Shown here in pieces: positions 5,026 through 26,888 of a stretch of DNA of 64,000 nt. How positions within the stretch are numbered: the stretch's first letter is position 1; each line of letters starts with the position of its first letter. A program made the position numbers and the translations under genes. This stretch comes from Spirosoma sp. KCTC 42546 (lineage in GTDB: Bacteria > Bacteroidota > Bacteroidia > Cytophagales > Spirosomataceae). The notes beneath the pieces were generated by a model, which had not been told where the DNA came from, searched no databases, and was given only the letters and a program-made list of their open reading frames with translations. Where the stretch lies: assembly GCF_006965485.1 (NCBI RefSeq), contig NZ_CP041360.1:5870501-5934500 (forward strand). Direction: 5' to 3'.

Positions 5026-5036
5026 AACGGATTGCG

Positions 5037-8000
5037 CTAAAAGCTTACATTTAATCCAACCGTATAGGTTTTGGCGCTTGGATACGTGCCCCAGTCGATG
5101 CCCACGGCCACATCGCCCTTGAACTGCTCGTTGTTCACGTTGTCGCTGCTTTGCTGTTCGGGGTCCAGGCCGGGGTACTTGGTGAACGTGAGCAGGTTTT
5201 GCCCACTCACATACACCCGGATGGTGGAGGAACCCAGTTTTTTGGTGAGGGTGCTGGGCAGCGTGTAGCCGAGCTGGAGATTTTTCAGGCGGGTGTAAGC
5301 CCCATCTTCCAGAAAACGGGTCGATGGTTGCTTGTTATTGGCCGATCCACTCCACGATACCCGAGGTTGTGTATTGCTGGTTCCTTCGCCATGCCAATGG
5401 TCGTCGACCACCCGTTGGGTTACGTTGAACGCCCGGTAAAATCCTTCAATATCCGTGGCAACCTGGTAATAGATCTTGTTGCCCGAAACACCCTGAAAGA
5501 AGGCCGACAGGTCGAAGTTTTTCCATTGCAGGTTGGCCGTCAGGCCGTAGGTCAGCGTGGGAATCGGGCTCCCCACGTGCGACCGATCCAACTGGTTAAT
5601 GAGCCCATCGCCGTTCATGTCTTTGAAGCGGACGTCGCCGGGTTTGATGTTATTACCCTGAAAGGCACTGGTAAAAATCTGGCCTTCGTTCTGAAAAATT
5701 CCGTCCTGCTGAAGCAGGTAGAACGAGCCAATGGGATAACCCGGCTCGGTCAGTGTACCGAAGACGCCGTTGTCGATCCGCCCGCCGGGAATGGGCCGAC
5801 CTTCGCTGAGCGACAGGACTTTGTTGTGAATGAAGGAGGCATTGGCGCTAATGTCGTACGAAAAAGCGCCCTTTTTATAGCGAAAAATCAGGTCCAACTC
5901 CAGGCCACGGTTCTCCACCTGACCCGCATTGACATAGGGAGCAGCCGCACTACCGCCCGATTTGGGAACCGGGATTGGAACCAGAATATCGGAGGTTCGT
6001 TTGATGAAATAGTCGGCGGTGATCTGGAGTTTATTCTGAAGAAACCCCATTTCCAGGCCCACGTCGGTTTGGGTCGACGACTCCCATTTTACGTTGGAGT
6101 TTCCCCGCGTCACAACGGCATAACCCGCTACAGTTTGTGGACTGGCCCCGAATACATAGTTGTATCCACTACCTACCAGCGAAGCGTAGGGATAGTTACC
6201 GATATCCTGATTCCCCAGTTGACCGATGCTCGCCCGTAGTTTCAACAGGGAAATCGTGCGGGACAGGGGCTGAAAAAACTCCTCCCGGTCGATGTTCCAG
6301 CCTGCCGAACCCGAGAAGAAATTGGCGTATCGGTTCGTAGGCGAGAAGCGCGACGATCCATCGCGACGAACGTTGACCGATGCCAGGTATTTATCCCGAA
6401 ACGCGTAGTTGACGCGTCCAAACAGCGAGAACAGCGACCAGCGGGAATCGCTTTCGAACGACTGCCGCCCGGTAATGTCGGCCCCCTGACCGAGGTAACG
6501 CAGGTTGCTCACCTGATCAATGAAATTCCGGTCGGAACCGCCCACATCGCGACTGACGCTGTGAATGGCTTCGGTACCCGCCAGCGCCGTTATCTGGTGG
6601 TTTTCACCGATCGTGATATCATAATTCAGGGTGTTGTTCCAGGTAATCGTACTAGCCGGACTAAACCGGTTGACGAGTGTGGAGGGGCTATTGATCCGAT
6701 TGTTGGTGCCCCAGTTTTCGTTATAGGTTTTCCGGTTGACGATGTTCAGGTCGAGCCCGGCATCGGTCCGAAACCGTAGCCCTTTCAGGATTTGCCACTC
6801 CCCAAAAATATCCCCGAACACCCGATACTGTTGTTCTTTATTATCCTGTTTCTGCGCCAGCCCAACCGGGTTGTAGCCGTCGCCAAAGAAGGCCGGGAAC
6901 TGGGGCAGATCGGCATAGTCGCCGTTTTGATCGTACACCGGAATGGCGGGCGTCCGGAACAGCGCATACCGAACAATGCTGCCGCCGTTGCCCCCGTACC
7001 CATCGCCCGAACTCCCCACAATACTGCGCTGCGAATAGGTGATATTCAGGTTGGTTCCAATTTTAACCTTTCGGGCAATCTCCGTATCGATGCTGGCCCG
7101 GAGTGCGTAGCGTTTGTAGCTCGAATTGAGAATGATACCCTGCTGATCGAAGTAATTGGCCGACAGGAGGTAATGCGACTTGTCGGTGCCTCCACTAACC
7201 GACAGTTGATAGTTCTGAATGGGAGCCGTACGAAAAATGGCTTTCTGCCAATCGGTATCGGCCACCTGAAGCGTACTCGGAATCAACTGGCGTTGCAGGC
7301 TCGGATTGGTAATTGACGCGTTGTCGTTGGTAGCCGCTTCGTTGTAGATGTTGATGTACTCCTGGGAGTTGGCCATCGGAATCAACCGACCGTGTTGCTG
7401 AATACCGGTATACGCATTAAACGTTACCCGAGGGGCACCACTTTTGCCGCGTTTGGTCGTCACCACAATCACGCCGTTGGCCGCACGTGCGCCATAAATA
7501 GCCGCCGAAGAGGCATCTTTCAGCACCGACATGCTTTCAATATCGGCAGGGTTTAGTACGCTGAAGGCATCTTTGGTTGGTACACCGTCAATGATAAACA
7601 GCGGGCTATTATCGTTGATCGTTCCCACCCCGCGAATCCGGACAGCAACCCCTTCGCCCGGAGCACCCGTTGACTGGGTCACGCGAACGCCCGATGATTT
7701 TCCCTGTAATGCCTGATCGATACCCGCCACAGGCAGGCGACTGATGTCTTTAGCCGTAATCGTCGAAACCGCCCCCGTCAGATCCGATTTTTTTTGCGAT
7801 CCGTAGCCCACCACCACCACTTCCGACAGCGATTTATTATCGTCCTGCAAAGTGACAGTCAGGGTTGTTCGATTACCCACTGCCACCTCCTGCCCCAGAT
7901 ACCCGACGGAAGAGAACAGGATAACGGCCTGATCGTCGGCCACCGTAATCCGAAAATTACCCTGGGCATCGGTGGTGGTACCGGTCTGGGTTCCTTTCAC

Positions 8001-8501
8001 CACCAGGTTGACACCCGGAATGGGCTGACTTTTCTCATCCAAAACGGTTCCCGTAACCACCTTATCGACACTCGCTGGGGTTTCGGGGGCCAGGGAGGCC
8101 CGGAAGTCGGACGAGGGTGGCAGCACGGCCTCACCGGATCTGGGTTTCAGCAGGATCAGTCGTGGACCGGTTACGGAGTAGTCGATCTGGAGAGGTGTTA
8201 GTAACTCGTTCAGCACCTTTTCCAGACGCTCATTTTTGACCGTCAGGCTGGCCTTCCGATCCGCTTTAATAAGCTCGAAGCTGTAGGCAAACTGCACATC
8301 GGCAATCTTCTCCAGCCGTTCCAGAATCGTTTCGACCGACTGGTTTGCTATTGACAGGCTTACGGTTCGTTTCAGTGGATTTTGGCCATGAACGGGTCGG
8401 GCAATCAGGCTGCCCATGACGCTGATGAGCAACAGGAACGGGATAAAAGTTAGTCGCATAAACCAGCGGAGGTACGAACGATGGGGTAGCGTTTTCATCA
8501 T
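5037..8501 (-). CDS. SusC/RagA-family TonB-dependent transporter with STN domain
   Basis: Outer-membrane active transporter, 1154 residues. Signal peptide about residues 1-39, then an STN signalling domain (about 43-120), a carboxypeptidase-like CarbopepD_reg domain (about 147-230), the TonB plug with SusC signature (VVVVGYGSQKKSDLTGAVST, about 226-247) and a 22-strand barrel ending in a terminal aromatic (VGLNVSF). The STN domain normally contacts the periplasmic part of a FecR-type anti-sigma factor, and one is encoded directly upstream, so substrate-triggered autoinduction is likely. Substrate not readable; the LamG lipoprotein and ABC sugar importer downstream argue for an oligosaccharide rather than a siderophore. 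Confidence 0.97.
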   Translation of the reverse strand: MMKTLPHRSYLRWFMRLTFIPFLLLISVMGSLIARPVHGQNPLKRTVSLSIANQSVETILERLEKIADVQFAYSFELIKADRKASLTVKNERLEKVLNELLTPLQIDYSVTGPRLILLKPRSGEAVLPPSSDFRASLAPETPASVDKVVTGTVLDEKSQPIPGVNLVVKGTQTGTTTDAQGNFRITVADDQAVILFSSVGYLGQEVAVGNRTTLTVTLQDDNKSLSEVVVVGYGSQKKSDLTGAVSTITAKDISRLPVAGIDQALQGKSSGVRVTQSTGAPGEGVAVRIRGVGTINDNSPLFIIDGVPTKDAFSVLNPADIESMSVLKDASSAAIYGARAANGVIVVTTKRGKSGAPRVTFNAYTGIQQHGRLIPMANSQEYINIYNEAATNDNASITNPSLQRQLIPSTLQVADTDWQKAIFRTAPIQNYQLSVSGGTDKSHYLLSANYFDQQGIILNSSYKRYALRASIDTEIARKVKIGTNLNITYSQRSIVGSSGDGYGGNGGSIVRYALFRTPAIPVYDQNGDYADLPQFPAFFGDGYNPVGLAQKQDNKEQQYRVFGDIFGEWQILKGLRFRTDAGLDLNIVNRKTYNENWGTNNRINSPSTLVNRFSPASTITWNNTLNYDITIGENHQITALAGTEAIHSVSRDVGGSDRNFIDQVSNLRYLGQGADITGRQSFESDSRWSLFSLFGRVNYAFRDKYLASVNVRRDGSSRFSPTNRYANFFSGSAGWNIDREEFFQPLSRTISLLKLRASIGQLGNQDIGNYPYASLVGSGYNYVFGASPQTVAGYAVVTRGNSNVKWESSTQTDVGLEMGFLQNKLQITADYFIKRTSDILVPIPVPKSGGSAAAPYVNAGQVENRGLELDLIFRYKKGAFSYDISANASFIHNKVLSLSEGRPIPGGRIDNGVFGTLTEPGYPIGSFYLLQQDGIFQNEGQIFTSAFQGNNIKPGDVRFKDMNGDGLINQLDRSHVGSPIPTLTYGLTANLQWKNFDLSAFFQGVSGNKIYYQVATDIEGFYRAFNVTQRVVDDHWHGEGTSNTQPRVSWSGSANNKQPSTRFLEDGAYTRLKNLQLGYTLPSTLTKKLGSSTIRVYVSGQNLLTFTKYPGLDPEQQSSDNVNNEQFKGDVAVGIDWGTYPSAKTYTVGLNVSF

Positions 8502-8541
8502 GATTGTGTTGAGTAAAGGGTACGTTTTCGGGTGGGGCTAA

Positions 8542-9675
8542 CTAGCGACAACCCGATGAATGAATAACCAGTTGGCCATTTTGCAATTCGTAGGTTGAGC
8601 CGGTAATGGCAGCAATCACATCAAGTCGGGCAAAGAGCGACGGATCATCCAGATGCGCGGTGAGTGTGCAGCCCGATAACGCATCGCGATCAAACTGAAT
8701 GTCGATCCCGTACGCCTTTTCGAGGGCATCCAGCACCTGCGGTAAGGGCGTCCGTCGGAACGAAAAGGACTGCGTGGTGGCGGGTAATACCGTAGCTTCG
8801 GCTCGGCTGACCTCGCTTTTAACCAGACGGGCATCTTCCTTCGAAAACGTAGCCTGCTGATTGGGCAAGAGCACAACGGCCATTGGCTGAGACAGGCCAG
8901 CTTTCGATTGATCACTACCTTTCGGATTGGTCGACACGGCGACTTTCCCCGTTTTGACCACTACGTTTACCTTGCCGCCCGTTTCGGGGGCATTGATCAG
9001 GAAGCTGGTTCCCAACACCTCGGTCGTTACGTCGCCGGTAAACACCCGGAACGGCTTCGCTGGATTCCGGACAACTTCAAAGAAGGCTTTCCCCGTTAAG
9101 AATACATCCCGTTTAGCGCCAGCAAATTGCTTTGGAAAACGGATTCGGGCATTTTGTTGCAATACAACCAGGCTCCCATCGGCCAACCGAACCAACCGGG
9201 GAGCGGTTTTCAGATTAGCCACCTCGAGCAGCGCTGCGGGTGATGTTGCCGCTTGTTCTTTAGTCGCAACGACTGGCCCGCGTCGGTTTTGCTGCCAATA
9301 GCGCCAGCCAAACCAGCTCGTCAACAGCAACAGGGCAACGGAAGCCGCCACCCGAAGCGGTTGCCAGTACGACCAGTCCGACAGCGAACGAACCAGGCCA
9401 CGGCGTTCATCCGGAACCGCCAACAAAATACGCTCGACAGCCTCACCGATTTGCTGATCGGGTAGTTCGGGCAGTTCACCTTTTGCGGTGAGCAGGAAAG
9501 TTCGGGCCAGCTCAACACTTTCCCGATCGTCGGGATACTGAGTCAGGTAATTTTCCCAATAAGCCACCTCAATCGGTGTGCTGGCAAATACCCAGCGCCG
9601 AAACGATTCATTCTCAATAAATTGCTGCGGTGTCAAGGCGCGTCGTCTGTTCTGCGCAAGCGGCTTCGATGCCAC
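8542..9675 (-). CDS. FecR-family anti-sigma factor
   Basis: Single-pass inner-membrane regulator, 377 residues. The cytoplasmic N-terminal part (about 1-105) would hold the sigma factor, a transmembrane helix lies at about 110-127 (VAASVALLLLTSWFGW), the FecR domain at about 165-265 and a C-terminal DUF4974 domain at about 305-370, which receives the signal from the STN domain of SusC. It lies 40 bp upstream of SusC and about 440 bp downstream of the ECF sigma gene. The palindrome-rich gap between sigma and FecR is unusually long for this arrangement. Confidence 0.95.
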   Translation of the reverse strand: MASKPLAQNRRRALTPQQFIENESFRRWVFASTPIEVAYWENYLTQYPDDRESVELARTFLLTAKGELPELPDQQIGEAVERILLAVPDERRGLVRSLSDWSYWQPLRVAASVALLLLTSWFGWRYWQQNRRGPVVATKEQAATSPAALLEVANLKTAPRLVRLADGSLVVLQQNARIRFPKQFAGAKRDVFLTGKAFFEVVRNPAKPFRVFTGDVTTEVLGTSFLINAPETGGKVNVVVKTGKVAVSTNPKGSDQSKAGLSQPMAVVLLPNQQATFSKEDARLVKSEVSRAEATVLPATTQSFSFRRTPLPQVLDALEKAYGIDIQFDRDALSGCTLTAHLDDPSLFARLDVIAAITGSTYELQNGQLVIHSSGCR

Positions 9676-9795
9676 TTGTAAGACGAGGAGTGGCGAGGGT
9701 CAAAAAAGTAACCGTCGACTATGAAAATTCTTTTAAAAAATAAAACTTAAGTGGGCAGGCAAGGCGGAGATTCTAGTGACTCTTTGGATTCCTCT

Positions 9796-9923
9796 GTTCT
9801 CGCTTGGCTTCGCCGAGTGAGGGGTATATTTTTAACGGCCTCTGGCCGGTCAATGCAATTGCACTAAAACGGGCCAGAGGCCCTTGAACGAATAAACCTC
9901 ACTCGGCGTAGCCAAGCGAGAAC
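9796..9923. repeat. Nested inverted repeat, REP-like, copy 1
   Basis: Outer arms of 27 bp at 9796-9822 and 9897-9923 (core CTCGCTTGGCTTCGCCGAGT) pair with one mismatch. A second inverted repeat sits inside: GGCCTCTGGCC at 9837-9847 against GGCCAGAGGCC at 9872-9882. Each outer arm is itself partly self-complementary (GGCTTCGCC). Confidence 0.85.
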
Positions 9924-12107: not shown

Positions 12108-13499
12108 TTGTTTCAGTTAGAACCCATTGCCGCCCTTGCCACCGCGCCGGGCATTGGTGCCATTGCCGTTATCCGCGTATCGGGCGAGGGTGCCATTGAG
12201 ATCACCAACCGTATTTTCCGGGGTAAAGACCTCACCCAACAGGCTAGCCATACTGCCCATTTCGGCACCTTGAGGAATCGACCTGACGCGTCGGGTACCG
12301 AAAGCATCATCGACGAAGTGCTGGTAACGGTTTTCCGGGCACCTAAGTCCTTCACCAAAGAAGATGTGGTCGAGATTTCGTGTCATGGGTCGGAGTTTAT
12401 CAGTCAGCAGATTCTGCGTCGGCTTACGCAGGAAGGGGCCCGACTGGCTAAACCAGGCGAGTTCACCCAGCGCGCTTTCCTGAACGGCCAGTTCGATCTG
12501 GTTCAGGCCGAAGCCGTAGCCGACCTCATTGCGTCGGACTCCGATGCCAGTCACCGGGCCGCCCTGAACCAGTTGCGGGGGGGATTCTCGAAGCGGTTGA
12601 AAGAACTGCGTCAGCAACTCATTGATTTTGTGGCTTTAGTAGAACTGGAACTGGATTTCGGCGAAGAAGACGTAGAGTTTGCCCACCGCGACCGGCTCCG
12701 GCAATTGATGCTCGATATCCGGCGGGTGCTCCATCCGCTGATCGACTCCTTCTCAACCGGAAACGCCATTAAAAACGGCGTACCTACGGTAATTGTCGGC
12801 AAACCCAATGCGGGCAAATCGACCCTACTGAATGCGCTGTTGAACGAAGAGAAAGCCATCGTTTCTGATATTCCCGGCACTACCCGGGATGTTATTGAAG
12901 ACGAATTATTCATCAACGGCATCCGCTTCCGGCTGATCGACACAGCCGGTTTACGCCAGGCCACCGACAGGATCGAAGCTATCGGTATTGAGCGAACTCA
13001 ACAGAAAATGCGCGATGCGGCTCTGGTCGTTTATTTGTTCGATGGCAAGAATATTGAACCTAATGAACTACAGCTAGCCGTTACGGAAGTACGCGAATCG
13101 GGTAAGCCTTACCTGCTCGTCGGAAATAAACTGGATGCGATTACGGATCAGAAACGCCTGGCCTTAGAAGATATACTGGGAGAAACGGTCGTCTGGATTT
13201 CGGCTGCGAAACAAACGCATTTAGAGGAACTGAAATCTGCCCTTTCGGCCCGTGTACTGACCGATGCCGCCGTCCAAACGGGCAGTGCCGTCGTGACCAA
13301 CGCCCGCCACTACGAACACCTCACCGCCACCGATGAGGCCCTCGCCCGTGCCATTGCCGGGCTGGATTCGAACGTAACCCCCGATTGGTTAGCCATGGAT
13401 CTACGCGTTGCATTACAACATCTGGGTGAGATAACCGGCGAAATTACAACAGACGATTTATTAGAGTCGATTTTTAGTAAGTTCTGTATTGGAAAGTAA
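12108..13499 (+). CDS. mnmE: tRNA modification GTPase MnmE (TrmE)
   Basis: With MnmG this GTPase installs the 5-carboxymethylaminomethyl group on U34 of tRNAs reading split boxes. 463 residues. The N-terminal tetrahydrofolate-binding domain begins IAALATAPGIGAIAVIRVSG; the G domain has G1 GKPNAGKS at 231-238, a G2 GTTR at 257-260, G3 DTAG at 278-281 and G4 NKLD; the C terminus ends with the universal CIGK. The only workable start is TTG at 12108; an ATG at 12070 is out of frame. No strong ribosome-binding site is seen, which is normal in this phylum. Confidence 0.98.
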   Translation: MFQLEPIAALATAPGIGAIAVIRVSGEGAIEITNRIFRGKDLTQQASHTAHFGTLRNRPDASGTESIIDEVLVTVFRAPKSFTKEDVVEISCHGSEFISQQILRRLTQEGARLAKPGEFTQRAFLNGQFDLVQAEAVADLIASDSDASHRAALNQLRGGFSKRLKELRQQLIDFVALVELELDFGEEDVEFAHRDRLRQLMLDIRRVLHPLIDSFSTGNAIKNGVPTVIVGKPNAGKSTLLNALLNEEKAIVSDIPGTTRDVIEDELFINGIRFRLIDTAGLRQATDRIEAIGIERTQQKMRDAALVVYLFDGKNIEPNELQLAVTEVRESGKPYLLVGNKLDAITDQKRLALEDILGETVVWISAAKQTHLEELKSALSARVLTDAAVQTGSAVVTNARHYEHLTATDEALARAIAGLDSNVTPDWLAMDLRVALQHLGEITGEITTDDLLESIFSKFCIGK

Positions 13500-13742: not shown

Positions 13743-14309
13743 ATGAGTTCAAACATACGCATCATCCGTATCTGTCAGCAATGCGGCAACGAGTTTGAAG
13801 CACGTAAGACAACGTCTAAAACGTGTAGCGATAACTGCGCCAAGAAAGCTTATAAAGCACGTCAGAGGTCAACAAATGTCCAGACGAGTGCTGAGCAGAC
13901 GTTGCAGATAAAACTGAAACCTATCGAAGACATAAAGGCGCAGGAGTTTCTGACAGTTAATGAATCGGCAATGCTTATTCGTATCAGTCGGCGTAGTCTG
14001 TACCGGCTCAATGAACGGGGTGAACTACCCTTTGTCAAACTCAACCGCCGTACCGTTATCCGCCGTTCGGACATTGACCGTCTGTTTGATCGTCCAGCCG
14101 AGCTAATGGAGAAAAGCCGTCCGGAACCGGTTGCATTGGCAGACTGCTACACCATGAAGGAAATACGAGAGAAATACGATATATCTGAAAAAGCACTCTA
14201 CGAGCTTATTCATCGGCATGAGATTCCTAAGCAGTATAGCAGTATCTATGCATATGTGCCTAAATACAGAATCGACCAGTTGCTATCTAATCCTTCAAAC
14301 CTATCATGA
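13743..14309 (+). CDS. Zinc-ribbon and tandem HTH (excisionase-like) DNA-binding protein
   Basis: 188 residues. N-terminal CxxC...CxxxC cluster (Cys11, Cys14, Cys28, Cys32) suggests a small zinc ribbon. Two MerR/excisionase-type HTH_17 motifs follow: about residues 75-117 (FLTVNESAMLIRISRRSLYR) and about 137-186 (YTMKEIREKYDISEKALYEL). It overlaps the integrase gene by 4 bp (ATGA), so the two are translationally coupled and this protein is the likely directionality factor or regulator of that recombinase. The doubled HTH is a little unusual; most Xis proteins have one. Confidence 0.8.
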   Translation: MSSNIRIIRICQQCGNEFEARKTTSKTCSDNCAKKAYKARQRSTNVQTSAEQTLQIKLKPIEDIKAQEFLTVNESAMLIRISRRSLYRLNERGELPFVKLNRRTVIRRSDIDRLFDRPAELMEKSRPEPVALADCYTMKEIREKYDISEKALYELIHRHEIPKQYSSIYAYVPKYRIDQLLSNPSNLS

Positions 14310-16587: not shown

Positions 16588-16595
16588 CCTAACTC

Positions 16596-16646
16596 TTACT
16601 TCATTTCTTACTTACGTTACTTCATTTCTTACTTGACTTACTTGCC
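16596..16646. repeat. 21-bp direct repeat
   Basis: TTACTTCATTTCTTACTT occurs at 16596-16613 and 16617-16634, separated by ACG and GAC to give a 21-bp period, with a third partial unit TTACTTGCC at 16638-16646. It begins 8 bp after the orphan gene stop and precedes the next HTH gene. Confidence 0.8.
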
Positions 16647-16710
16647 CAAAATATCATACTCAATAAACCAGTAATGTTGTTCAACGCTTCAAAAACGCGT
16701 GTTGAGCAAT

Positions 16711-17103
16711 ATGCAAAGTACTCCTATTACCTTCGATCAACTTCCCACAGCGGTCTATGAGTTAGGACGCAAAGTTGACGACTTGACTGGCTTATTGAAA
16801 GCAATGACCAGCCAGCAAATCCCTTCCCCTGACCGCTGGTTCGCTATTGAGGAACTTAGTGAGTATTTACCGGGGCGCCCAGCCGTAACAACTCTGTACG
16901 GAAAAGTTCAACGGCGAGAAATTCCATTTTCACGAAATGGTAAACGATTAGTATTTCGGCAATCCGAAATTGATGCTTGGCTACAAAAGGATCGCGTCAA
17001 AACAGCTACTGAACTAGATTCATTGGCAGAGCAACACTTACTCAAAAAATCTTCTTCGCACAAACTCAACAAGCAGGATCAGAAAGGAGGGCAGCTATTA
17101 TGA
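16711..17103 (+). CDS. Excisionase-family HTH DNA-binding protein
   Basis: 130 residues from the ATG at 16711; a GTG at 16699 would add four residues. After a short helical N terminus (TAVYELGRKVDDLTGLL) comes an HTH_17 domain at about 43-97 (WFAIEELSEYLPGRPAVTTL, then RREIPFSRNGKRLVFRQSEI), the usual layout of Bacteroidota mobile-element Xis-like proteins. Its stop overlaps the next start by 4 bp. It probably helps recombination or controls the replication genes downstream. Confidence 0.8.
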   Translation: MQSTPITFDQLPTAVYELGRKVDDLTGLLKAMTSQQIPSPDRWFAIEELSEYLPGRPAVTTLYGKVQRREIPFSRNGKRLVFRQSEIDAWLQKDRVKTATELDSLAEQHLLKKSSSHKLNKQDQKGGQLL

Positions 17104-17387: not shown

Positions 17388-19394
17388 ATGCTACTCAAAG
17401 ATACAACAGTTCTGGAAAATCAGGAGCAAATTTTTGAATTGTTTCCATGCATCAAAGCTCCTCAGTCAGAGGGAGGTGTAATGCTAAGTCAGCTTCTACA
17501 GCGTATAGATAAGGGCGAGTACAAGGAGAAACACATTGCTTATAGGCTAACGCCTGATGACCAAAAGCTAGCTTACAGAAATAATTCTCTACCCTGCTTT
17601 AGGGTGGGCGGGCTTAACAGCCCTCAAGCAAAGATATCATTGACCCTTCAACATTATAATAAAGTAATAGCGTTCAAGTTGACAGGTATCATTGGAGAGC
17701 CTCTGGAAAGTTTGCATCATGACAAGCACACGTTTGCACTGATTCATACCCTCTCTATAAATGAGTTTGTATTATTGGTTCTAACGGGTATAAACGATCC
17801 TAGCGATCAGGCTCAAAGAGATCAATATGCAATGAAACTCACCTTATATCTACAAGAATACCACGGTTTATTGCCCGAAGCGATTAAACCGTTAAGTCCA
17901 TCATCCTTTTGCTGGCCAGGCGAGAAGCAACACTTTATGAACCCTGCAGCACAGCCCTGGTTTATAGATGGCACTCCGGTGCAGACTGATAAAGCATTTA
18001 GCCAGACGGCTACACTCCGAGATAAAATCGATCGATTGCTGATTCAACAGGTGGAGACTGAAATGGAACACCTGAGTGAACAGAAACTGGAATTCGTCCC
18101 GACTATTCAAGGACAACAAGTCGGTCCCTTTCCCATTGAAGCATTTCCGGATCTCTTTCAACCAATTATCCAGCAGACTAGCTTACATATGAATTTTAGA
18201 CCTGACTGGATAGGATCAGCTATTCTGTATGCAGCGAGTGTGGCTGTTGGTAACTGCTACGCGACTCGTTATAAGGATTACTCCCAAAAAGCGCTGCTGT
18301 ATTTGGCTATTGTTGGCATGCCTGGAACAAATAAAAGTGGTCCCCTCGAGTATGCAATTAAGCCGTTACGGCATGTCGATAAAATTGCTTATCGTAAATA
18401 TATCCAGCAGAAAGCCGAAAAATTAGCGGCTAATCTACCTTCTCCTATTTACCAGACGACTTTAGTTTCCGACGTAACACAGGAGTTTTTAGTACAAACA
18501 ATGGAGAATAACCCTATAGGGCTGGGTCTGTTAATGGATGAGCTAGCCGGTTGGTTTAAAAACTTTACGCGCTATAATAAAGGGAGTGAAGAACAATTTT
18601 GGCTATCCGTTTGGTCTTTTTCACCTGTTAAATCTGGGCGAAAAGCGTCAGGAGTTCAGCATATAGATAACCCTTATTTATCGGTGGCCGGAACTATTCA
18701 GCCTGGCGTATTAAGCGAATTAGCCAAAGATGGACGTAGTCAGAATGGATTTATTGACCGAATCTTATTTGCCTACCCTGATGATCAGCAGAAAAACAAA
18801 GACTCGGATACGGAGCTGGATCCTTCTATTACCAAAGAGTATTATAGATTGATTGATAAGCTTTTAACGCTCCGACAGGGCGCTGTCATTGATGAATATG
18901 GATCAGTCGAAACCAATTGGATACCTTTTGCCCCTGATGCTTTTGATCGAATGCGCCAATGGCGTGACGATAACACGGACCGATCCAACCAGACTCCAAC
19001 TCAAGCCCTTAAAGGAATCTACGCTAAATTCGATGCGTATTGTATTCGATTTGCTTTGCTGATCGAATTAATGAAATGGGCCTGTGATCAATCTGATCTG
19101 ACCCGAATCCGTCTTGACAGCGTTGAACGCGCTATTGTATTGGCTGATTACTTTCGGCAAAACGCGGAGAAAGTTTATAATGAGCTTCGCCAACAGTCTC
19201 CTATTGGTCCATTATCTCCTGATCGACAACGCTTATTCAACGCCCTTTCCAATCAGATTACAACGGCGGAGGCCATCGATATCGGGAAGGATCTTACTCC
19301 ACCTGTCTCCGAGTCGACTGTGAAACGGCTTCTTTCCGAGGACAAATTTTTTAAACAAGTCAAACATGGCGTCTATTCTAAATTGGCTTTCTGA
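17388..19394 (+). CDS. BT4734-like / DUF3987 primase-helicase-type protein
   Basis: 668 residues. The first part (about 1-200) resembles the BT4734/VirE N-terminal module that accompanies primase-like proteins in Bacteroidota mobile elements. The second part (about 235-600) is DUF3987, with FPDLFQPIIQ, the segment LYLAIVGMPGTNKSG and a VAGTIQPGVL block. The loop GMPGTNKS near residue 310 is a degenerate Walker A. A winged-helix-like tail follows (about 610-665). Known family members sit in plasmids and integrative elements and are assigned to replication; the biochemistry is not settled. Its TGA stop is the first three bases of the first iteron at 19392. Confidence 0.85.
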   Translation: MLLKDTTVLENQEQIFELFPCIKAPQSEGGVMLSQLLQRIDKGEYKEKHIAYRLTPDDQKLAYRNNSLPCFRVGGLNSPQAKISLTLQHYNKVIAFKLTGIIGEPLESLHHDKHTFALIHTLSINEFVLLVLTGINDPSDQAQRDQYAMKLTLYLQEYHGLLPEAIKPLSPSSFCWPGEKQHFMNPAAQPWFIDGTPVQTDKAFSQTATLRDKIDRLLIQQVETEMEHLSEQKLEFVPTIQGQQVGPFPIEAFPDLFQPIIQQTSLHMNFRPDWIGSAILYAASVAVGNCYATRYKDYSQKALLYLAIVGMPGTNKSGPLEYAIKPLRHVDKIAYRKYIQQKAEKLAANLPSPIYQTTLVSDVTQEFLVQTMENNPIGLGLLMDELAGWFKNFTRYNKGSEEQFWLSVWSFSPVKSGRKASGVQHIDNPYLSVAGTIQPGVLSELAKDGRSQNGFIDRILFAYPDDQQKNKDSDTELDPSITKEYYRLIDKLLTLRQGAVIDEYGSVETNWIPFAPDAFDRMRQWRDDNTDRSNQTPTQALKGIYAKFDAYCIRFALLIELMKWACDQSDLTRIRLDSVERAIVLADYFRQNAEKVYNELRQQSPIGPLSPDRQRLFNALSNQITTAEAIDIGKDLTPPVSESTVKRLLSEDKFFKQVKHGVYSKLAF

Positions 19395-19591
19395 CACATT
19401 GACATTTTGACATTTTAGATGTGCCCTGTTTACTGTTCTCTCCTTAAGTAGAACCTGAAGGTGTAGAGGATGATCATTCGTATAAGTCAAAATACATTCA
19501 AATAGGATTGATATTCTGACACCTTGACATTTTGGGAAGGCTCAACAGTGAAAGAAGCCAATTTGTAAAGTATCAAAATATCAAAAGTTCA
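19392..19591. repeat. Iteron clusters upstream of the Toprim gene (three clusters)
   Basis: Strictly 8-bp-phased units. Cluster a, plus orientation: TGACACAT, TGACATTT, TGACATTT (19392-19415). Cluster b, plus orientation: TGACACCT, TGACATTT (19517-19532). Cluster c, minus orientation: TGAACTTT, TGATATTT, TGATACTT (read from 19591 down to 19568). They fill the spacer between the DUF3987 gene and the Toprim gene; cluster c ends 15 bp before the Toprim start. Confidence 0.85.
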
Positions 19592-19605
19592 TAGGTATAA
19601 TTTTT

Positions 19606-20769
19606 ATGAGCGATTTATCAGATCAACTAGAAATTGAATTTGGTGCCGAAATTTTATCTGAGTTAACAGGGTGCCGCCTTACGCGGAACCAACAGAATGT
19701 ACGGTTATTCGATCAAACCAGGCACACGGCCGAGTGCTATTACAGAGCTGATGAAAAAGGGAAACCTTACATTCAGGATCATGCCATAAATAAGCGCTAC
19801 TATCCTGTTACAGCTTACTGCCAGTTTCATGAGATTGAATTCCTAACAGCCATAGATGAATTGTCTCGGAAATACGGCCTGGCTAGTTCATATTCTACAA
19901 AAAAAGACCTGAAGCTACCCATTCGATCTAGGCCAAATCAACAACGTCTAGTTACTGAAATACCGATTGATTATCTATCCATGGAGATATATCGGCGCAG
20001 TCAAAGTCATTTTGAGCGAAATGGATTCTATCAGTACTTAAGCCGCTTTTTTAATAAGCCAACTGCCGATTTACTCTTTGCTGAGTACCAGTTAGGAACT
20101 TCCCGTCGGTGGACATTTGAAAATACCCTTGCAACCTGTCTGCCTCAAATCGATCACATTGGGAACCTACGGCAAGTGAAAGTAATCCCTTTTCACCCCA
20201 TGACAGGTCACCGGGCCCAAGATCATCAGAATGCTCGTCGATTAAACACGAATACAGGTCAATACGAGACAGATATGAATGGGAAGGTCTGGTTCGCTGG
20301 TAAGACCCTAGCGGGTAATTATACAATCAATTTGAAACAGTGTTTTTTTGGAGAGCATTTACTAGCTCTGTATCCTGACAAACCTGCTGCCTTGGTTGAG
20401 GGGGAATCTACGGCTATGGTATGCTCGATCTATTTACCTAACCGCATCTGGTTAGCAACGGGTGGGAGTAATGGGTGTAGGTGGTACGATCCAGAAGTAT
20501 TTGACGTGTTTAAAAAGCGCAAAGTCATATTATATCCCGATACGGGAAAGTATGAAGACTGGTGCAATCGAGCTTCTCTTTTGCAGCGGTTGGGCTATAA
20601 ATTAGAAGTTAGTTCGTTCGTTCAGAAAAAGACGCCAGCTGGAGTTACTAATGCTGATTTACGCGATTTATTCACCGGACCACGTTGGCTCCAGAAGGAA
20701 AACAACATTATCTTCGGAGAAAAACTAAAAGTCGATCCATGCGACATTTATCCACCTAGTTGGGATTAG
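19606..20769 (+). CDS. DUF6371-like Toprim protein (primase-type)
   Basis: 387 residues. N-terminal part (about 30-95) has a CHC2-like primase zinc-finger layout with few cysteines (ECYYRADEKGKPYIQDHAIN). The C-terminal half is a Toprim fold: the catalytic Glu lies in LVEGESTAMV near residue 264, and the acidic Asp pair is represented by YPDTGKYEDW near residue 311. This is the arrangement of the DUF6371 family that travels with DUF3987 in Bacteroidota elements, so the two are probably a split primase/helicase replication module. The gene is bracketed by iteron clusters. Confidence 0.75.
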   Translation: MSDLSDQLEIEFGAEILSELTGCRLTRNQQNVRLFDQTRHTAECYYRADEKGKPYIQDHAINKRYYPVTAYCQFHEIEFLTAIDELSRKYGLASSYSTKKDLKLPIRSRPNQQRLVTEIPIDYLSMEIYRRSQSHFERNGFYQYLSRFFNKPTADLLFAEYQLGTSRRWTFENTLATCLPQIDHIGNLRQVKVIPFHPMTGHRAQDHQNARRLNTNTGQYETDMNGKVWFAGKTLAGNYTINLKQCFFGEHLLALYPDKPAALVEGESTAMVCSIYLPNRIWLATGGSNGCRWYDPEVFDVFKKRKVILYPDTGKYEDWCNRASLLQRLGYKLEVSSFVQKKTPAGVTNADLRDLFTGPRWLQKENNIIFGEKLKVDPCDIYPPSWD

Positions 20770-21022
20770 TAGTCAGCATTGATTCCGCTGCTAAAAGTGA
20801 TTCATCTAGCCTAAAGCAGGCCATCAAATACCTTTACCATGTCCAATGCACGTATATACATAACCGTATGTGCATGGTTGCTAGAGCCTAAAGGAAAAAT
20901 TCAGCTATAATTCTTGGAATGAATAAGAAATCAGAACGGGAGGTAGATGCCAATGCGGTATTTATATCACCTCAACGGTTGCAGGCGTAGTCTTGTCGGT
21001 TCTACTTCTAAATTTTACTAAG

Positions 21023-21751
21023 TGAACTTTTGACACGTTGACATTTTCAAGATGACCTTAATTATAGGAACTCTTGACATTTTGACACTTTAGGCAATTC
21101 CTAGTATTTACCGATCCAGACGAAAATGTCAAAATATCAACGGTCAATTCACTCTAAATTAAAAATTCGTAAAACGGTCCCTGCCTGATATGAACACGCA
21201 AAACGGAATAAGATAAGCGATACGTACGACTATCGATTAAAAGCATTAGAGTATAGTTTGGGATTTTAAATTATCACCGGGCTACATCAATCTATTGCCA
21301 AGGCTCATCCAGTCATATTTTAGGGTGAACTTTTGACACGATGACACTTTTAAACATCCTTATCATCCTAAAATCAACATTATCTGAATGAACTCTTGAC
21401 ACGTTGACATTTTTGGATTCCTTAGTCAACCCCAGCCCCAATAGAACACTAATGACATTTTGATATTTTGACATTTTTGCCCAGTATCAATGCTCAATAG
21501 ATTTTTCCTAAAGTGTCAAAAGGTCAAAATATCAATAGATTAAATTTTATCCTCTCTTGAAAGCCAGATCTTAATACCCATTTGGAAGCATGAAGAAATA
21601 TTAGTAGACCCGAGCGATGAATAGGACTACTGCTTTAAAGAGGCCGGGGGTAACCATGCGTTTAGAAGTACCCCCCGCTCCAAATAGATTTCCGGCCGAA
21701 TGGGTCCCATATCATCGCGTTAATACGAGACATTTTGAGATTTTGACATTT
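21023..21751. repeat. Iteron clusters in the candidate origin (eight clusters)
   Basis: Plus orientation: 21023-21046 (TGAACTTT, TGACACGT, TGACATTT); 21067-21090 (GGAACTCT, TGACATTT, TGACACTT); 21326-21349 (TGAACTTT, TGACACGA, TGACACTT); 21389-21412 (TGAACTCT, TGACACGT, TGACATTT); 21453-21476 (TGACATTT, TGATATTT, TGACATTT); 21728-21751 (AGACATTT, TGAGATTT, TGACATTT). Minus orientation: 21124-21147 (TTGACCGT, TGATATTT, TGACATTT) and 21511-21534 (TGATATTT, TGACCTTT, TGACACTT). Three abutting 8-mers per cluster is the rule, and four plus-strand clusters begin with a GAAC-type lead unit. Confidence 0.9.
21612..21640. repeat. Direct repeat GAGCGATG-GGACTAC, copy 1
   Basis: GAGCGATGAATAGGACTACT followed by GCTTTAAAG; the second copy is at 22205-22232. 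Both copies are followed by a run of G or C (here GGCCGGGGGT). They flank the small winged-helix gene. Confidence 0.7.
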
Positions 21752-21776
21752 CACGCTTCTCAACTGGTAAACCGGC

Positions 21777-22109
21777 CTAGCTTATCTGTATTGATATGGG
21801 CTTAGCGACCCCTGGATTTAGCCAAAAGACCGATCGGGTTCGATAAGCCATCAGCTTAAAATGGACGAGCTCACGGATGCCTTTTCCAATATAGCTACTA
21901 TCCGTCATGAACTTTGACGCCATTTTGACTGGGGATAACTCCACCGAACCGTCGGCTTCCAAATGGGCTAGCGCGTAGAACAGCACACGTAACGAGATAG
22001 GTCGTAAGGTGACCATTATCAGATTGAGCTTATAGTCTTCAGGCTGAAAAAATGTTCCTTGCACCAGATCATCGTGCCGAGGATAGGGATTAACTTTTTG
22101 ATAACTCAT
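21777..22109 (-). CDS. Small winged-helix protein, possible RepL-like replication initiator
   Basis: 110 residues. The middle (about 35-80) reads as a helix-turn-helix: ISLRVLFYALAHLEADGSVE, then KMASKFMTDSSYIGKGIREL. A wing ends in the strand VFWLNPGVAKP, matching the xxYWLNPxxx ending of RepL-type plasmid initiators and related phage proteins. The call rests on this resemblance alone. It is encoded on the opposite strand to the primase module and lies directly next to the iteron array, the expected place for an initiator or array-binding protein. Confidence 0.5.
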   Translation of the reverse strand: MSYQKVNPYPRHDDLVQGTFFQPEDYKLNLIMVTLRPISLRVLFYALAHLEADGSVELSPVKMASKFMTDSSYIGKGIRELVHFKLMAYRTRSVFWLNPGVAKPISIQIS

Positions 22110-22403: not shown

Positions 22404-23999
22404 CTAGTCGTCATCATCCAGACCAAGTGCGTACGGGTTCGCATACTCGTTGGTCACTTTCTGGCCGGCATCCTGATTGGAGAAGTACCGGTTCAAGGCT
22501 GCATTCTTATACAGCGCACCAACCGGAGCATACAGCGTGATTTCACGCGTATCCTTGTTGTAGGTTCCTGCCCCAATCCGCGTCGACGAATTGAACATAC
22601 CTTCCAGCAAGCCCGCTTGCTTGGCATCGCTGTTGGAATCCATGCGCAGGGTAACTTTCACAAATCCCATGGGTCCATTAGGACTCAGGGGCTGACCCGA
22701 CTGCCCGAACTCACGGGGGTTGGTGTAGATTTTATTGTCGATATGCACGATCTGGTGAGATGTCCCCGACAGATCAATCGCATTAAACCCATTTTGGGGA
22801 ACAATACCTTCCAGAATCTTACCACCCCGCCAGCCGGTTGGATTCTCTTTTGAAACCGGCACTTTCTCCGCTCCTACCAGACTTCCCAGCGCCCCCGCCG
22901 ATTCCTTGTCATAAACATCAAGTGCCTTAAAACCAACTTTACCCGTACTACCACCCCCAAAACTGCCCAGATCATAACCCGAATGCCGCAACACCTTATG
23001 ACCTTTCAACTCATCATCCTGCACGTACGCCACGCCAGGCTGATCTGTCGACTGGGGGATCATGTGACGCAGATACGCTCCCGGATCAGTACCGTCGGCT
23101 CCTGCATTTTGCAGGCCTGCCAACTTGGTTTGTTTGATCTGATTGCTTAACTGTAATCCCTGAGCCCGCAGGTTATCGAGTGCCCCTTTCCGGTTATGGT
23201 CGGCAACTTTCATCTGATGATCCTGCTGCTTTAGTTTGAAGTCAACAAGCTCATCGAGTGGTTTAGTCTTGTAATAGATCTGCGCACCCCGATATTTTCG
23301 ATGGTATTTATCCTCTGCCACTTCGCGGGGATTAGCGGCTAATAGATATTCCTGGATAGCCTTATCATCGACTGCTGTTTGCTCGTAGGGAAGTTTGTTA
23401 GGAGCGTACTGTTCGCTAAAATGCTTGAGTAAATTATCATCGTCTTTATAGCTCCCTTGAAAATCAAACTTGGGTAGCTTTCCGGCATAGTAGTCAGCTA
23501 TGCGTTTATCCGCCGATATATACTGCTTGGTACCATTGACATCCCGAACCTCACCAATCAGGTTTTCGCCTTTCCGCATAGCTTCCTTAGCCAGCGTGAT
23601 CTGCTCCAGATTGTGGAGTCCTGTTTGATACTCATTACTTTGCTCCAGCGCTCCCAGTGTGTGATCCATCCAGGCTGCTCCCTCAACTGCCATGAATTTT
23701 TTTAAACTTCCTTGATACGAGTTCTCCAGCCGATCAGCAATGGATTTCTCTTGTCCCAGTAGCCATTTGGACACCCGCACTTTATCCGGCCGCTCTAGCG
23801 GTAAAGTGCGAATCTTTTGTTGAAAATTGGCGATCTGAGCCGCGGCTTGCTGTTCCTGCAATAACTCCTGCTCGGACTGTTGGGTAAGATAAGTTTGCTG
23901 CTGTAACTGGTTGTCTTTGGCAGCCATCACTTGCCCCCAGTTCGTAGTGGGAGCCATTAGCCCGGCGATCAGGGCATCTGAACCAATTGGACGGGTCAT
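22404..23999 (-). CDS. Large hypothetical protein, possibly virion-associated
   Basis: 531 residues, no family recognised with certainty. The N terminus (about 25-75) is a Gln-rich coiled coil (QLQQQTYLTQQSEQELLQEQ), the middle (about 75-310) is helical and charged, and a Gly-rich stretch (SFGGGSTGKVG) leads to a C-terminal part with many short beta strands and an acidic end (LGLDDDD). There is no signal peptide and no catalytic motif. The layout resembles structural or internal virion proteins of Bacteroidota phages, but no capsid, portal or terminase gene is present. The gene is monocistronic and more GC-rich than its neighbours. Confidence 0.55.
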   Translation of the reverse strand: MTRPIGSDALIAGLMAPTTNWGQVMAAKDNQLQQQTYLTQQSEQELLQEQQAAAQIANFQQKIRTLPLERPDKVRVSKWLLGQEKSIADRLENSYQGSLKKFMAVEGAAWMDHTLGALEQSNEYQTGLHNLEQITLAKEAMRKGENLIGEVRDVNGTKQYISADKRIADYYAGKLPKFDFQGSYKDDDNLLKHFSEQYAPNKLPYEQTAVDDKAIQEYLLAANPREVAEDKYHRKYRGAQIYYKTKPLDELVDFKLKQQDHQMKVADHNRKGALDNLRAQGLQLSNQIKQTKLAGLQNAGADGTDPGAYLRHMIPQSTDQPGVAYVQDDELKGHKVLRHSGYDLGSFGGGSTGKVGFKALDVYDKESAGALGSLVGAEKVPVSKENPTGWRGGKILEGIVPQNGFNAIDLSGTSHQIVHIDNKIYTNPREFGQSGQPLSPNGPMGFVKVTLRMDSNSDAKQAGLLEGMFNSSTRIGAGTYNKDTREITLYAPVGALYKNAALNRYFSNQDAGQKVTNEYANPYALGLDDDD

Positions 24000-24155: not shown

Positions 24156-24554
24156 TTATTGACAAGAATCAGGGCTAATTATCATTTTTGAGCGACGTTT
24201 TCTCCTAGGATAGCTCGATTGTTTAGGTAATTTCACTCCAACTATATTATACTCGTCAACAAAGATCATTAAACTGCTAGCCGAAAAAAGTACCCGACTG
24301 GTGAACCGGGTTCCTGTTAGCTTACCTGAGGCTTCATAGCGTTCTACCTGCTTGGTTGAACAATGCAGCATATTGGCCACTTGCTCTTTATTGTAAAAAA
24401 TAAGACCTGCTTTCAGCGCTATATTTTCACGGTTGATCGTTTCGGCTAATTCAAGTATTCGCCTTTCACGTGTGATTGCATCTTGTCGATCCGTCATCAT
24501 CGCTTGAAATTGTTCTTCAGTTAAGACTCTAAGTTCCATGGCCGGTGTTTTCAT
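24156..24554 (-). CDS. HTH (excisionase/MerR-like) DNA-binding protein
   Basis: 132 residues. A helical N-terminal half (about 15-50, MTDRQDAITRERRILELAET) is followed by an HTH_17-like motif at about 53-95 (FYNKEQVANMLHCSTKQVER, then SGKLTGTRF). The C-terminal end is basic (YPRRKRRSK). It is divergent from the XRE regulator gene, with an 89-bp shared control region carrying the CTTGTGCTATAT motif. It could be a regulator or recombination directionality factor for integrase 2. Confidence 0.7.
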   Translation of the reverse strand: MKTPAMELRVLTEEQFQAMMTDRQDAITRERRILELAETINRENIALKAGLIFYNKEQVANMLHCSTKQVERYEASGKLTGTRFTSRVLFSASSLMIFVDEYNIVGVKLPKQSSYPRRKRRSKMIISPDSCQ

Positions 24555-25550: not shown

Positions 25551-26888
25551 ATGACTACAATAGCGATAGTAAAAGGAAAAGCGGCTCGTAAGGATGGCAA
25601 ATATCCAGTGATGATTCGAGTCGGTAAGAACCGCAAGTATGCTTATGAAACACTTTTCCACATCAAGGAAAACCATTGGAATGACTCGGCTAAACAAGTT
25701 CTGGCCTATGACTCCCAGAGCAAGCAGTTAAATGCTATTCTGCGAGAACGGTATAAGCAAGTCTTTGAGCTTGTTGACTTTTATGATCAGAAAAGCTGGC
25801 CCTACACCACTCAGGATATTCTACGGATAGATTATCCGACCTGGAAAATAAATAAGCAAAAAGCCATCCCGGCACTACCCTTAGGCCTGCTTCATTTCGG
25901 CCGTACGGTTGTAATTCCCTTTTGGAAGCACAGAAATAATCTAGCTAATGCGGGTAAATATACCTTAGAGATAGATATTTTCGAAGATTTCTTAAAAACC
26001 CTTCAGCCGCCACGGACTGATATTTCTATGATTGATATCGACACAGAGTTTGTTGAGTCTTATCTCAATTACCTCCGTACTAAACCGGTGCCTTGCCGCA
26101 AAGACAGCACATTAAGACGACACTTGGCCCAATTAAAAGCAATTTTAAATATGGCCTTACGTCGGGGAATTATTCCCATCTTACCTTATTGGGAAATTGA
26201 TCTGGACGTACTCAAGTCAAAAAAACAGAAGCTTACCAAAGAGCAGATTGAACAGCTTGAAATCTTCGCCATGGATTTTTCGCCACTCCCAGATCAAAAG
26301 ATACTTAGGCATCGAGAGTCCATGCGTTTGTCTGTCCATACATTTCTGATACAGTATTATCTATTTGGAGCTCGGGTAGGGGATGTACTGTTACTTCGAA
26401 ATTCGAATGTGATCTTGGTAGGAGGAAATCCCGCCCGGATCGAGTATTACCAACAGAAAGGACGCAAGAAAGGAGGGAAACAGATGTTAAGCATTTATAT
26501 TAACCCGCGATTATTACCCCTAATTCGGATCTATTGGAACCCCGTTAACCCTGACGGTTTCCTTTTACCCTGGTTAACTTCTCGCTGGAAGGAGCGTCTA
26601 ACCTTATCACCACCGGAGAATGCTTATGCCTTAAAGCTAGCTGTCAATCAGGCCACAGCATCCGTTAACCATAACTTAAGACGGGTTGGCGTATTTCTAG
26701 AGATGGATTATACTTTTTCGTCCCATTCTGCTCGTCACTCCTATGCCCAACGAGCCAAGCAGAAAGGGAAGCCAATGGAATGGATTAAAGATTCACTGGG
26801 TCATAGTAGCTATGATATCACGGCGAATTATCTACAAGATCTGGACACTGACGAATTGAACCGGGGAATGGCAGATGTCTATGACTAG
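25551..26888 (+). CDS. Tyrosine-type site-specific recombinase (integrase) 2
   Basis: 445 residues, longer than integrase 1 and not closely similar to it. N-terminal arm-binding domain (about 1-95, with KGKAARKDGKYPVMIRVGKN typical of Bacteroidota arm domains), SAM-like domain (about 115-220), catalytic domain (about 235-440). Catalytic residues are Arg in FGARVGDVLLL, His-x-x-Arg in SHSARHSYAQ, His in LGHSSYDITA and Tyr in NYLQDLDTDE. It is intact and marks the right end of the accessory region; a bidirectional terminator follows about 130 bp downstream. Confidence 0.95.
   Translation: MTTIAIVKGKAARKDGKYPVMIRVGKNRKYAYETLFHIKENHWNDSAKQVLAYDSQSKQLNAILRERYKQVFELVDFYDQKSWPYTTQDILRIDYPTWKINKQKAIPALPLGLLHFGRTVVIPFWKHRNNLANAGKYTLEIDIFEDFLKTLQPPRTDISMIDIDTEFVESYLNYLRTKPVPCRKDSTLRRHLAQLKAILNMALRRGIIPILPYWEIDLDVLKSKKQKLTKEQIEQLEIFAMDFSPLPDQKILRHRESMRLSVHTFLIQYYLFGARVGDVLLLRNSNVILVGGNPARIEYYQQKGRKKGGKQMLSIYINPRLLPLIRIYWNPVNPDGFLLPWLTSRWKERLTLSPPENAYALKLAVNQATASVNHNLRRVGVFLEMDYTFSSHSARHSYAQRAKQKGKPMEWIKDSLGHSSYDITANYLQDLDTDELNRGMADVYD

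Follow-up and report, generated by a model that had tools for sequence, protein, structure and literature searches.

In the staphylococcal pathogenicity islands (SaPIs) and the phage-inducible chromosomal islands (PICIs), the origin of replication contains iterons that lie directly 3' of the initiator-helicase gene and are read by the C-terminal domain of the helicase, according to the portions of two papers that deal with them (PMC7581432, PMC6092414). In PICI origins an AT-rich region is found between two iteron sets (PMC6092414), and the primases of SaPIbov1 and SaPI5 are described as archaeo-eukaryotic primases (AEPs; PMC7581432). In the staphylococcal cassette chromosome mec (SCCmec), the isolated C-terminal domain of Cch2 binds a direct-repeat region of 23 bp that holds three AAGTG iterons and lies just behind cch2 (PMC7581432). 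By arithmetic only, three 5-nt iterons in 23 bp would correspond to a 9-bp pitch if they are evenly spaced. Here, an integrated element of Spirosoma sp. KCTC 42546 is described, which lies in a 64,000-nucleotide stretch of contig NZ_CP041360.1 (positions 5,870,501 to 5,934,500; the window, which means this whole stretch). The element carries eleven clusters of 8-bp units, the first of which begins at the very end of its DUF3987 helicase gene. These clusters are probably the iterons of a replication origin, with the predicted C-terminal winged helix of the DUF3987 helicase that the element itself encodes as their reader. The helicase, the DUF6371 protein and the clusters are arranged in the window as follows.

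17388..19394, forward strand: DUF3987 helicase, 668 aa, with an AAA+ core (residues about 254-598) predicted to be MCM-like
19218..19382, forward strand: predicted C-terminal winged helix (codons 611-665), the proposed iteron-reading domain
19392..19415, forward strand: module 1 forward cluster, whose first TGA ends the DUF3987 gene
19509..19532, forward strand: module 1 forward cluster
19568..19591, reverse strand: module 1 inverted cluster, 35 bp beyond the forward cluster
19606..20769, forward strand: DUF6371 protein, 387 aa, predicted DnaG-type primase
21023..21046, forward strand: module 2 forward cluster
21067..21090, forward strand: module 2 forward cluster
21124..21147, reverse strand: module 2 inverted cluster with one degenerate outer unit, 33 bp beyond the forward cluster
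21326..21349, forward strand: module 3 forward cluster
21389..21412, forward strand: module 3 forward cluster
21453..21476, forward strand: module 3 forward cluster
21511..21534, reverse strand: module 3 inverted cluster, 34 bp beyond the forward cluster
21728..21751, forward strand: lone forward cluster

The clusters were scanned for with three consecutive copies of TGACATTT (at least 17 of 24 matches, both strands, all 64,000 bases). Eight forward and three inverted clusters were obtained, all within 19350-21780, and none in the remainder of the window. Markov shuffles of the 19350-21780 stretch (n = 500) gave a mean of 0.05 clusters and a maximum of 2, for a consensus that was derived from the clusters themselves. 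The eleven 8-bp-phased clusters, three of them inverted, had already been listed in a first-pass annotation made from the sequence alone, and the scan bears them out with small corrections of position. The start of the cluster placed at 19517 shifts one unit upstream to 19509, with the unit TGATATTC; the 21124 cluster has a degenerate outer unit (TTGACCGT); and the first unit of the 21728 cluster is AGACATTT. The stop codon of the DUF3987 gene, said to lie inside the first unit, is indeed the TGA at 19392. Over the 33 units the base counts are T(31) G(32) A(32) C(20) A(26) T(23) T(25) T(31). Within each triplet, read in its own direction, the third unit is the best conserved (TGACATTT or TGACACTT in 10 of the 11 clusters) and the first the least regular. 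The leading TGAAC-type unit, likewise reported as recurring, is present in 4 of the 11 (21023, 21326, 21389 and the inverted 19568 cluster), and GGAAC in one (21067). The order of the clusters along the DNA, with + for forward and - for inverted, is + + -, + + -, + + + -, +, which we read as three copies of one module and one lone forward cluster. Module 1 sits between DUF3987 and DUF6371, and modules 2 and 3 sit downstream of DUF6371. Other 8-bp tandem repeats occur near the window start, far from the element, at 1-32, 892-921 and 939-968 (CGCTCTTT, GAGTGAAA, CACTCATT).

This element has the exact unit almost to itself. In the single-contig genome (8.66 Mb), TGACATTTTGACATTT with at most 1 mismatch occurs at six places, 6/6 inside the element, and with at most 2 mismatches 13 of the 15 places are inside it. 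With at most 3 mismatches the genome holds 74 matches and the reversed control pattern scores 92, so these places are background. Across 222 genomes of the family, the triplet pattern (at most 2 mismatches) matches four times in this element and once in one other genome; the latter is counted as background, since the reversed control gives 6 matches in 6 of these genomes. This single outside match, in genome G586, was considered as a second TGACATTT element and taken as chance: it overlaps the 5' end of a 234-aa open reading frame (ORF), and no helicase was seen in the surrounding 3-kb stretch. TGACATTT-type triplets are nearly absent from the first 20 DUF6371 loci examined, the best match there (TGACATGC-TGACCTTC-TGACATTT, L046) lying within the helicase ORF, and the TGACATTT unit is nearly absent from relatives with a 38-55% identical DUF6371. 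The missing exact motif had been considered a refutation of conservation. This was overturned by motif-free repeat searches, which gave element-specific arrays at the same place; the architecture is not private.

These searches detected short tandem repeats in the gap before DUF6371 of the relatives. The DUF6371 set comprised 81 loci with 67 close gaps, of which 62 were tested (upstream ORFs of at least 330 aa, not individually confirmed as helicases). An array with a 9-bp lag (score at least 10) was present in 19 of the 62 gaps, against 5 of 328 intergenic gaps located elsewhere in these loci and 3 of 1240 shuffles. For DUF3987, 80 loci were kept from an alignment scan, mostly from Bacteroidota genomes and metagenome-assembled genomes (MAGs), with few labelled otherwise; dereplication and the removal of loci with less than 230 bp downstream left 55. 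A 9-bp array (score at least 9) lies within 200 bp past the DUF3987 stop in 36 of these 55 loci; the counts are 6 of 408 for control post-stop stretches (p 1.9e-33) and 7 of 1100 for shuffles, and every other period from 5 to 15 reaches at most 2 of 55. The opposed layout recurs as well: a reverse-complement partner (at least 14/18) is found within 205 bp in 23 of the 41 DUF3987 loci whose main array spans 18 bp or more, while shuffles give 5 of 410. Further arrays of like units occur elsewhere in the examined stretch in 9 of 59 loci, for instance as opposed pairs at -2.5 and +2.1 kb in L225 and at -4.2 kb in L187, one of the nine (L186) resembling a weak chance match. Related DUF3987/DUF6371 elements had been expected to share the clusters at the same place: the place is shared, the units are their own and not TGACATTT. 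The gaps of L039, L040, L042-L044, L047, L097, L117, L119 and L120 hold near-perfect palindromes with a central TATAT(A), often with TTGCCA-like arms, and probably represent a different origin layout.

The pitch of 8 bp, by contrast with the 9 bp of most relatives, is a small-minority variant of the 9-bp rule and not a class of its own, since period 8 outscores period 9 (score at least 8) only in L179 (Spirosoma arboris) and L203 (an Arcicella MAG). In this respect the first-pass annotation has to be amended, while its suggestion of an origin-type iteron locus in a phage- or plasmid-like integrated element, beside a separate helicase/primase pair, stands. The gap of S. arboris contains two opposed modules of 8-bp units by eye. 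A second genome of the genus, G003, has 8-bp arrays past its DUF3987 gene, and its locus L339 has the same tail and gap sequence as L179. That the 8-bp pitch goes with a 2-residue insertion in the helicase tails P0001-P0012 is not claimed: DNA is at hand for two members (the window and L179/L339), and in L203 (= L118) a short 8-bp array occurs although the tail lacks the insertion.

In the gap before DUF6371, arrays are found beside several kinds of helicase. Among 55 scanned of 64 upstream ORFs, the (overlapping) families are AAA_25 (23), DUF5906 (21), D5_N (18), Pox_D5 (10), DUF3987 (8) and VapE-like (4), and arrays accompany D5, AAA_25 and VapE-like helicases too. The tails of these proteins were sorted by eye into groups A-H. 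Group A is represented by D5/DUF5906 proteins (L045, L054), D (L103, L052) and F (L115, L091) by AAA_25, G by a VapE-like protein (L124) and C by one near AAA_25 (L039); B (L118) and E (L050) are DUF3987 proteins whose tails differ. Nine-bp arrays (score at least 9) are found in 12/17 loci of group A, 1/3 of B, 4/5 of D, 4/5 of F and 1/2 of G. Unit similarity correlates with tail identity when the core is held constant (partial r 0.24, permutation p 0.001, 49 loci), and no correlation with core identity given the tail was found in the same loci (p 0.77). In a mixed-helicase set of 42 loci, the correlation with the tail given the primase is 0.18 (p 0.001), and none was seen with the primase given the tail (p 0.66). 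By these sequence comparisons, the unit follows the C-terminal tail of the helicase, not its core and not the primase. Group E is telling here, as it pairs a DUF3987 core and another tail with a GTTTCC-type repeat. Within group A, tails with KLNF segments (L046, L054, L132, L142) go with AAGTG-type units and tails with NRNF or SRNF (L048, L140, L100) with CTACA units, by eye, a pairing in D5-like tails that may be a recognition code.

DUF3987 is the sole Pfam match of the 668-aa helicase. In its structure model the AAA+ core is predicted to be MCM-like at the level of the fold, and the C-terminal tail, modelled with block pLDDT values of 84-96, is predicted to form a winged helix. The Foldseek list for this model includes Cch (5dgk); a PDB sequence search with the DUF3987 profile gave nothing useful. 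The DUF6371 protein is predicted to be a DnaG-type primase, with a zinc-domain-like N-terminus and a Toprim polymerase core. The first-pass annotation had put forward a 110-residue protein encoded beyond the arrays as a reader of the units. This is unlikely, and the predicted winged helix of DUF3987 is the better candidate: seven loci were examined out of 14 matches to the 110-aa protein besides the window's own, and none of the seven has an iteron-like array within about 1.5 kb (one has a low-complexity CT run).

During initiation, the C-terminal winged helix of DUF3987 would read one 8-bp unit per domain, so that three in-phase units would dock several helicase subunits. The inverted cluster, about 34 bp off, would dock a second, oppositely oriented set of subunits. 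This docking would load the ring helicase immediately on the 3' side of the gene that encodes it, and DUF6371 would then prime the opened DNA. Modules 2 and 3 may be extra copies, comparable to a second cis-region. As a unit of 8 or 9 bp falls short of one helical turn, successive units would be rotated by about 86 or 51 degrees. Such a rotation suits adjacent subunits in a ring better than dimers stacked along one face.

Compared to the described systems, the placement of iterons directly downstream of the initiator-helicase gene, as in SaPIs and PICIs, is found both in the window and in its relatives. Their C-terminal iteron recognition may have a counterpart here, to which the covariation of tail and unit and the predicted winged helix point. 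Opposed iteron sets are present, but an AT-rich centre is not evident. The element further differs by its DUF3987 family, its 8-bp pitch and its three module copies, and by a DUF6371 primase that is DnaG-type by predicted fold, where the SaPI primases are described as AEPs. It shares with SCCmec Cch an MCM-like AAA+ helicase, at the fold level of the predicted model only; the SCCmec systems are described with a DUF927 (Cch) or D5 (Cch2) helicase and CCPol-MP priming, the present one has DUF3987. As an origin, it would work like those of SaPIs and SCC elements, and it stands outside both families by primase type and helicase family. In satellite P4, repeats occur in both ori and crr, and the alpha protein is one fused primase-helicase, whereas primase and helicase are separate genes here. 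The alpha initiator of P4 has a cognate ori (PMC6092414, in the part concerned with origins). The stretches of pBUN2 and pFunn3_1 that resemble integrative and mobilizable elements (IMEs) show the same order of HTH (helix-turn-helix), integrase, HTH, DUF3987, gap and DUF6371, with other genes between; a relaxase comes next there, whereas the scan of ORFs in 13.7-26.9 kb of the window yielded none, the right end of the element not being located. In these two plasmids (L383, pBUN2, 5546-9835; L386, pFunn3_1, 4562-9689), repeats are seen in the gap by eye, and a mobilization gene or relaxase follows DUF6371. Rep_3-type iteron plasmids also have repeated initiator sites, although with longer iterons, and no Rep_3 initiator gene was found among the ORFs scanned in the same 13.7-26.9 kb. 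A primase of a Vibrio satellite, modelled with DUF3987 and DUF5906, is reported to be required for normal satellite copy number (PMC10803314, in the part on that primase). In literature on DUF3987, DUF6371 and their combinations, of which part was covered, no title on such origins in Bacteroidota was encountered. Novel features are a setting that spans the Bacteroidota, a partner predicted to be DnaG-type, one repeat grammar common to several helicase families, and the paired exchange of tails and units.

The other genes that bear on the nature of the locus are the following.

12108..13499, forward strand: mnmE (trmE); a related HTH and integrase pair also lies behind mnmE in three other genomes of the genus
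13743..14309, forward strand: helix-turn-helix (excisionase-like) protein, 188 aa
14306..15418, forward strand: tyrosine integrase, 370 aa; 80-85% identical copies follow mnmE in G003, G007 and G033
16699..17103, forward strand: HTH_17 protein, 134 aa
21777..22109, reverse strand: 110-aa protein without a family match, the earlier candidate binder, judged unlikely

The gene order is thus mnmE, HTH, integrase, HTH_17, DUF3987, gap, DUF6371, array region, the 110-aa ORF and more genes, including a second integrase. This second tyrosine integrase (25551-26888) and a 531-aa ORF without a family match (22404-23999) lie beyond the arrays. Two 21-bp direct repeats (TTACTTCATTTCTTACTTACG / ..TGAC) are located at 16594-16643, upstream of the HTH_17 gene. 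The contigs of G003 and G007 end behind the mnmE-linked HTH and integrase, before any replication module. The G033 element (L046/L382) at the mnmE site carries the repeats ACTTTTACC/ACTTTCACC and a helicase ORF whose tail looks D5-like by eye. With a related integrase beside another helicase and other repeats, it indicates that the replication module changes while the integration module stays. A 2693-aa ORF (L382, 8099-16180) lies downstream of its replication module.

The clusters may instead be operator arrays, at which the helicase tail or an HTH protein represses or switches DUF6371 and the downstream genes, without an origin function. Module 1 is indeed located directly upstream of the DUF6371 start, two HTH_17 proteins above the Pfam cut-off and a third, weak one are encoded within 13.7-24.6 kb, and a second, regulatory role would be compatible with the published origins. 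However, modules 2 and 3 come after DUF6371, in a stretch (20770-21776) without a listed ORF of at least 80 aa, the unit sequence follows the helicase tail, and the published cases of the same placement, as far as they are described, are taken as origins. A purely regulatory array is therefore unlikely, though it keeps some weight. Much less probable is a locus for partition (a centromere) or incompatibility to which a small protein, for instance the 110-aa one, would bind. Many clustered sites adjoin that small gene, and the HTH protein at 24156-24554 weakly matches a ParB-like PHROG (E 0.013). Moreover, the closest relatives of the 110-aa and DUF6371 proteins, P0122 (74%) and P0124 (64%), are both on a contig of 7,123,799 bases and so probably share a genome. 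That genome perhaps carries a sister element. Yet no other partition family was found among the ORFs scanned, the seven loci of 110-aa relatives lack arrays nearby, and G003 has 8-bp arrays and no match to the 110-aa protein.

Arm-type or excisionase sites of an integrase are a very improbable explanation. Two tyrosine integrases with arm-binding domains flank the locus, but the one at the mnmE junction is 4-6 kb away from the arrays and the other nearly 4 kb; in L046/L382, where the integrase at this site is 80% identical, both the helicase and the unit are different ones. Repeats that arose by chance or from low complexity have next to no weight, and the same holds for RNA hairpins that serve as terminators: some relatives (group C) do have near-perfect palindromes with a central TATATA, but the shuffle and control counts disfavour chance, and the window's units are direct repeats with inverted arms 33-35 bp apart.

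Several points weigh against the origin reading. The spacers between the last forward and the inverted cluster have an AT content of 0.57, 0.58 and 0.65, against 0.53 in the window; being just mildly AT-rich, they offer no clear melting region. The 8-bp excess on its own is weak (score at least 10 in 4 of 62 gaps, against 4 of 328 control gaps and 2 of 1240 shuffles). Thirteen of the 55 DUF3987 loci have no 8- or 9-bp array at a score of at least 8, several of them with looser repeats by eye, and tail groups C (0/11), E (0/9) and H (0/5) have no 9-bp arrays in the gap set. The tail correlations are modest (0.18-0.25), and the models match MCM and DnaG with low TM-scores of about 0.3. Neither a search for a direct repeat of the mnmE 3' end in 13.76-45 kb nor a comparison with G008 and G032 downstream of mnmE revealed the right end of the element. 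Binding, helicase loading, priming and replication of the excised element are what we infer, and the arrays could also, or instead, autoregulate the operon.

The replication of excised mobilizable elements is treated as unstudied in a 2017 review, whose section on their maintenance is headed 'An Unexplored World' and which also states that NBU1 excision requires a large region with two further genes (PMC5704250, in the sections concerned). NBU itself is expanded as non-replicative Bacteroides unit (PMC6764341, where the term is introduced). As a tentative generalization, somewhat short of an even bet, integrated Bacteroidota elements may share an origin grammar of opposed 9-bp (here 8-bp) iteron triplets in the helicase-DUF6371 gap, read by an exchangeable DNA-binding tail on at least four helicase families (MCM-like DUF3987, D5, AAA_25 and VapE-like). 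Tail and iteron would change together as an address label governing which elements may live side by side, and many 'non-replicating' mobilizable elements of Bacteroidota would have a replicative phase. Given the IME-like stretches on Bacteroides plasmids, the 'non-replicative' label of the NBU elements may deserve a second look. With the natural pairs of tail and unit, simple binding assays could test a DNA-recognition code of helicase tails, and the two pitches of 8 and 9 bp raise the question of how a ring helicase tolerates different spacing. The location of the origin would be predicted for many Bacteroidota elements. Functions are suggested for two families of 'unknown function', DUF3987 as an MCM-like self-addressing initiator helicase and DUF6371 as its DnaG-type primase partner. 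If this is true, the DUF3987 branch pairs an MCM-like helicase of archaeal/eukaryotic style with a primase of bacterial style.

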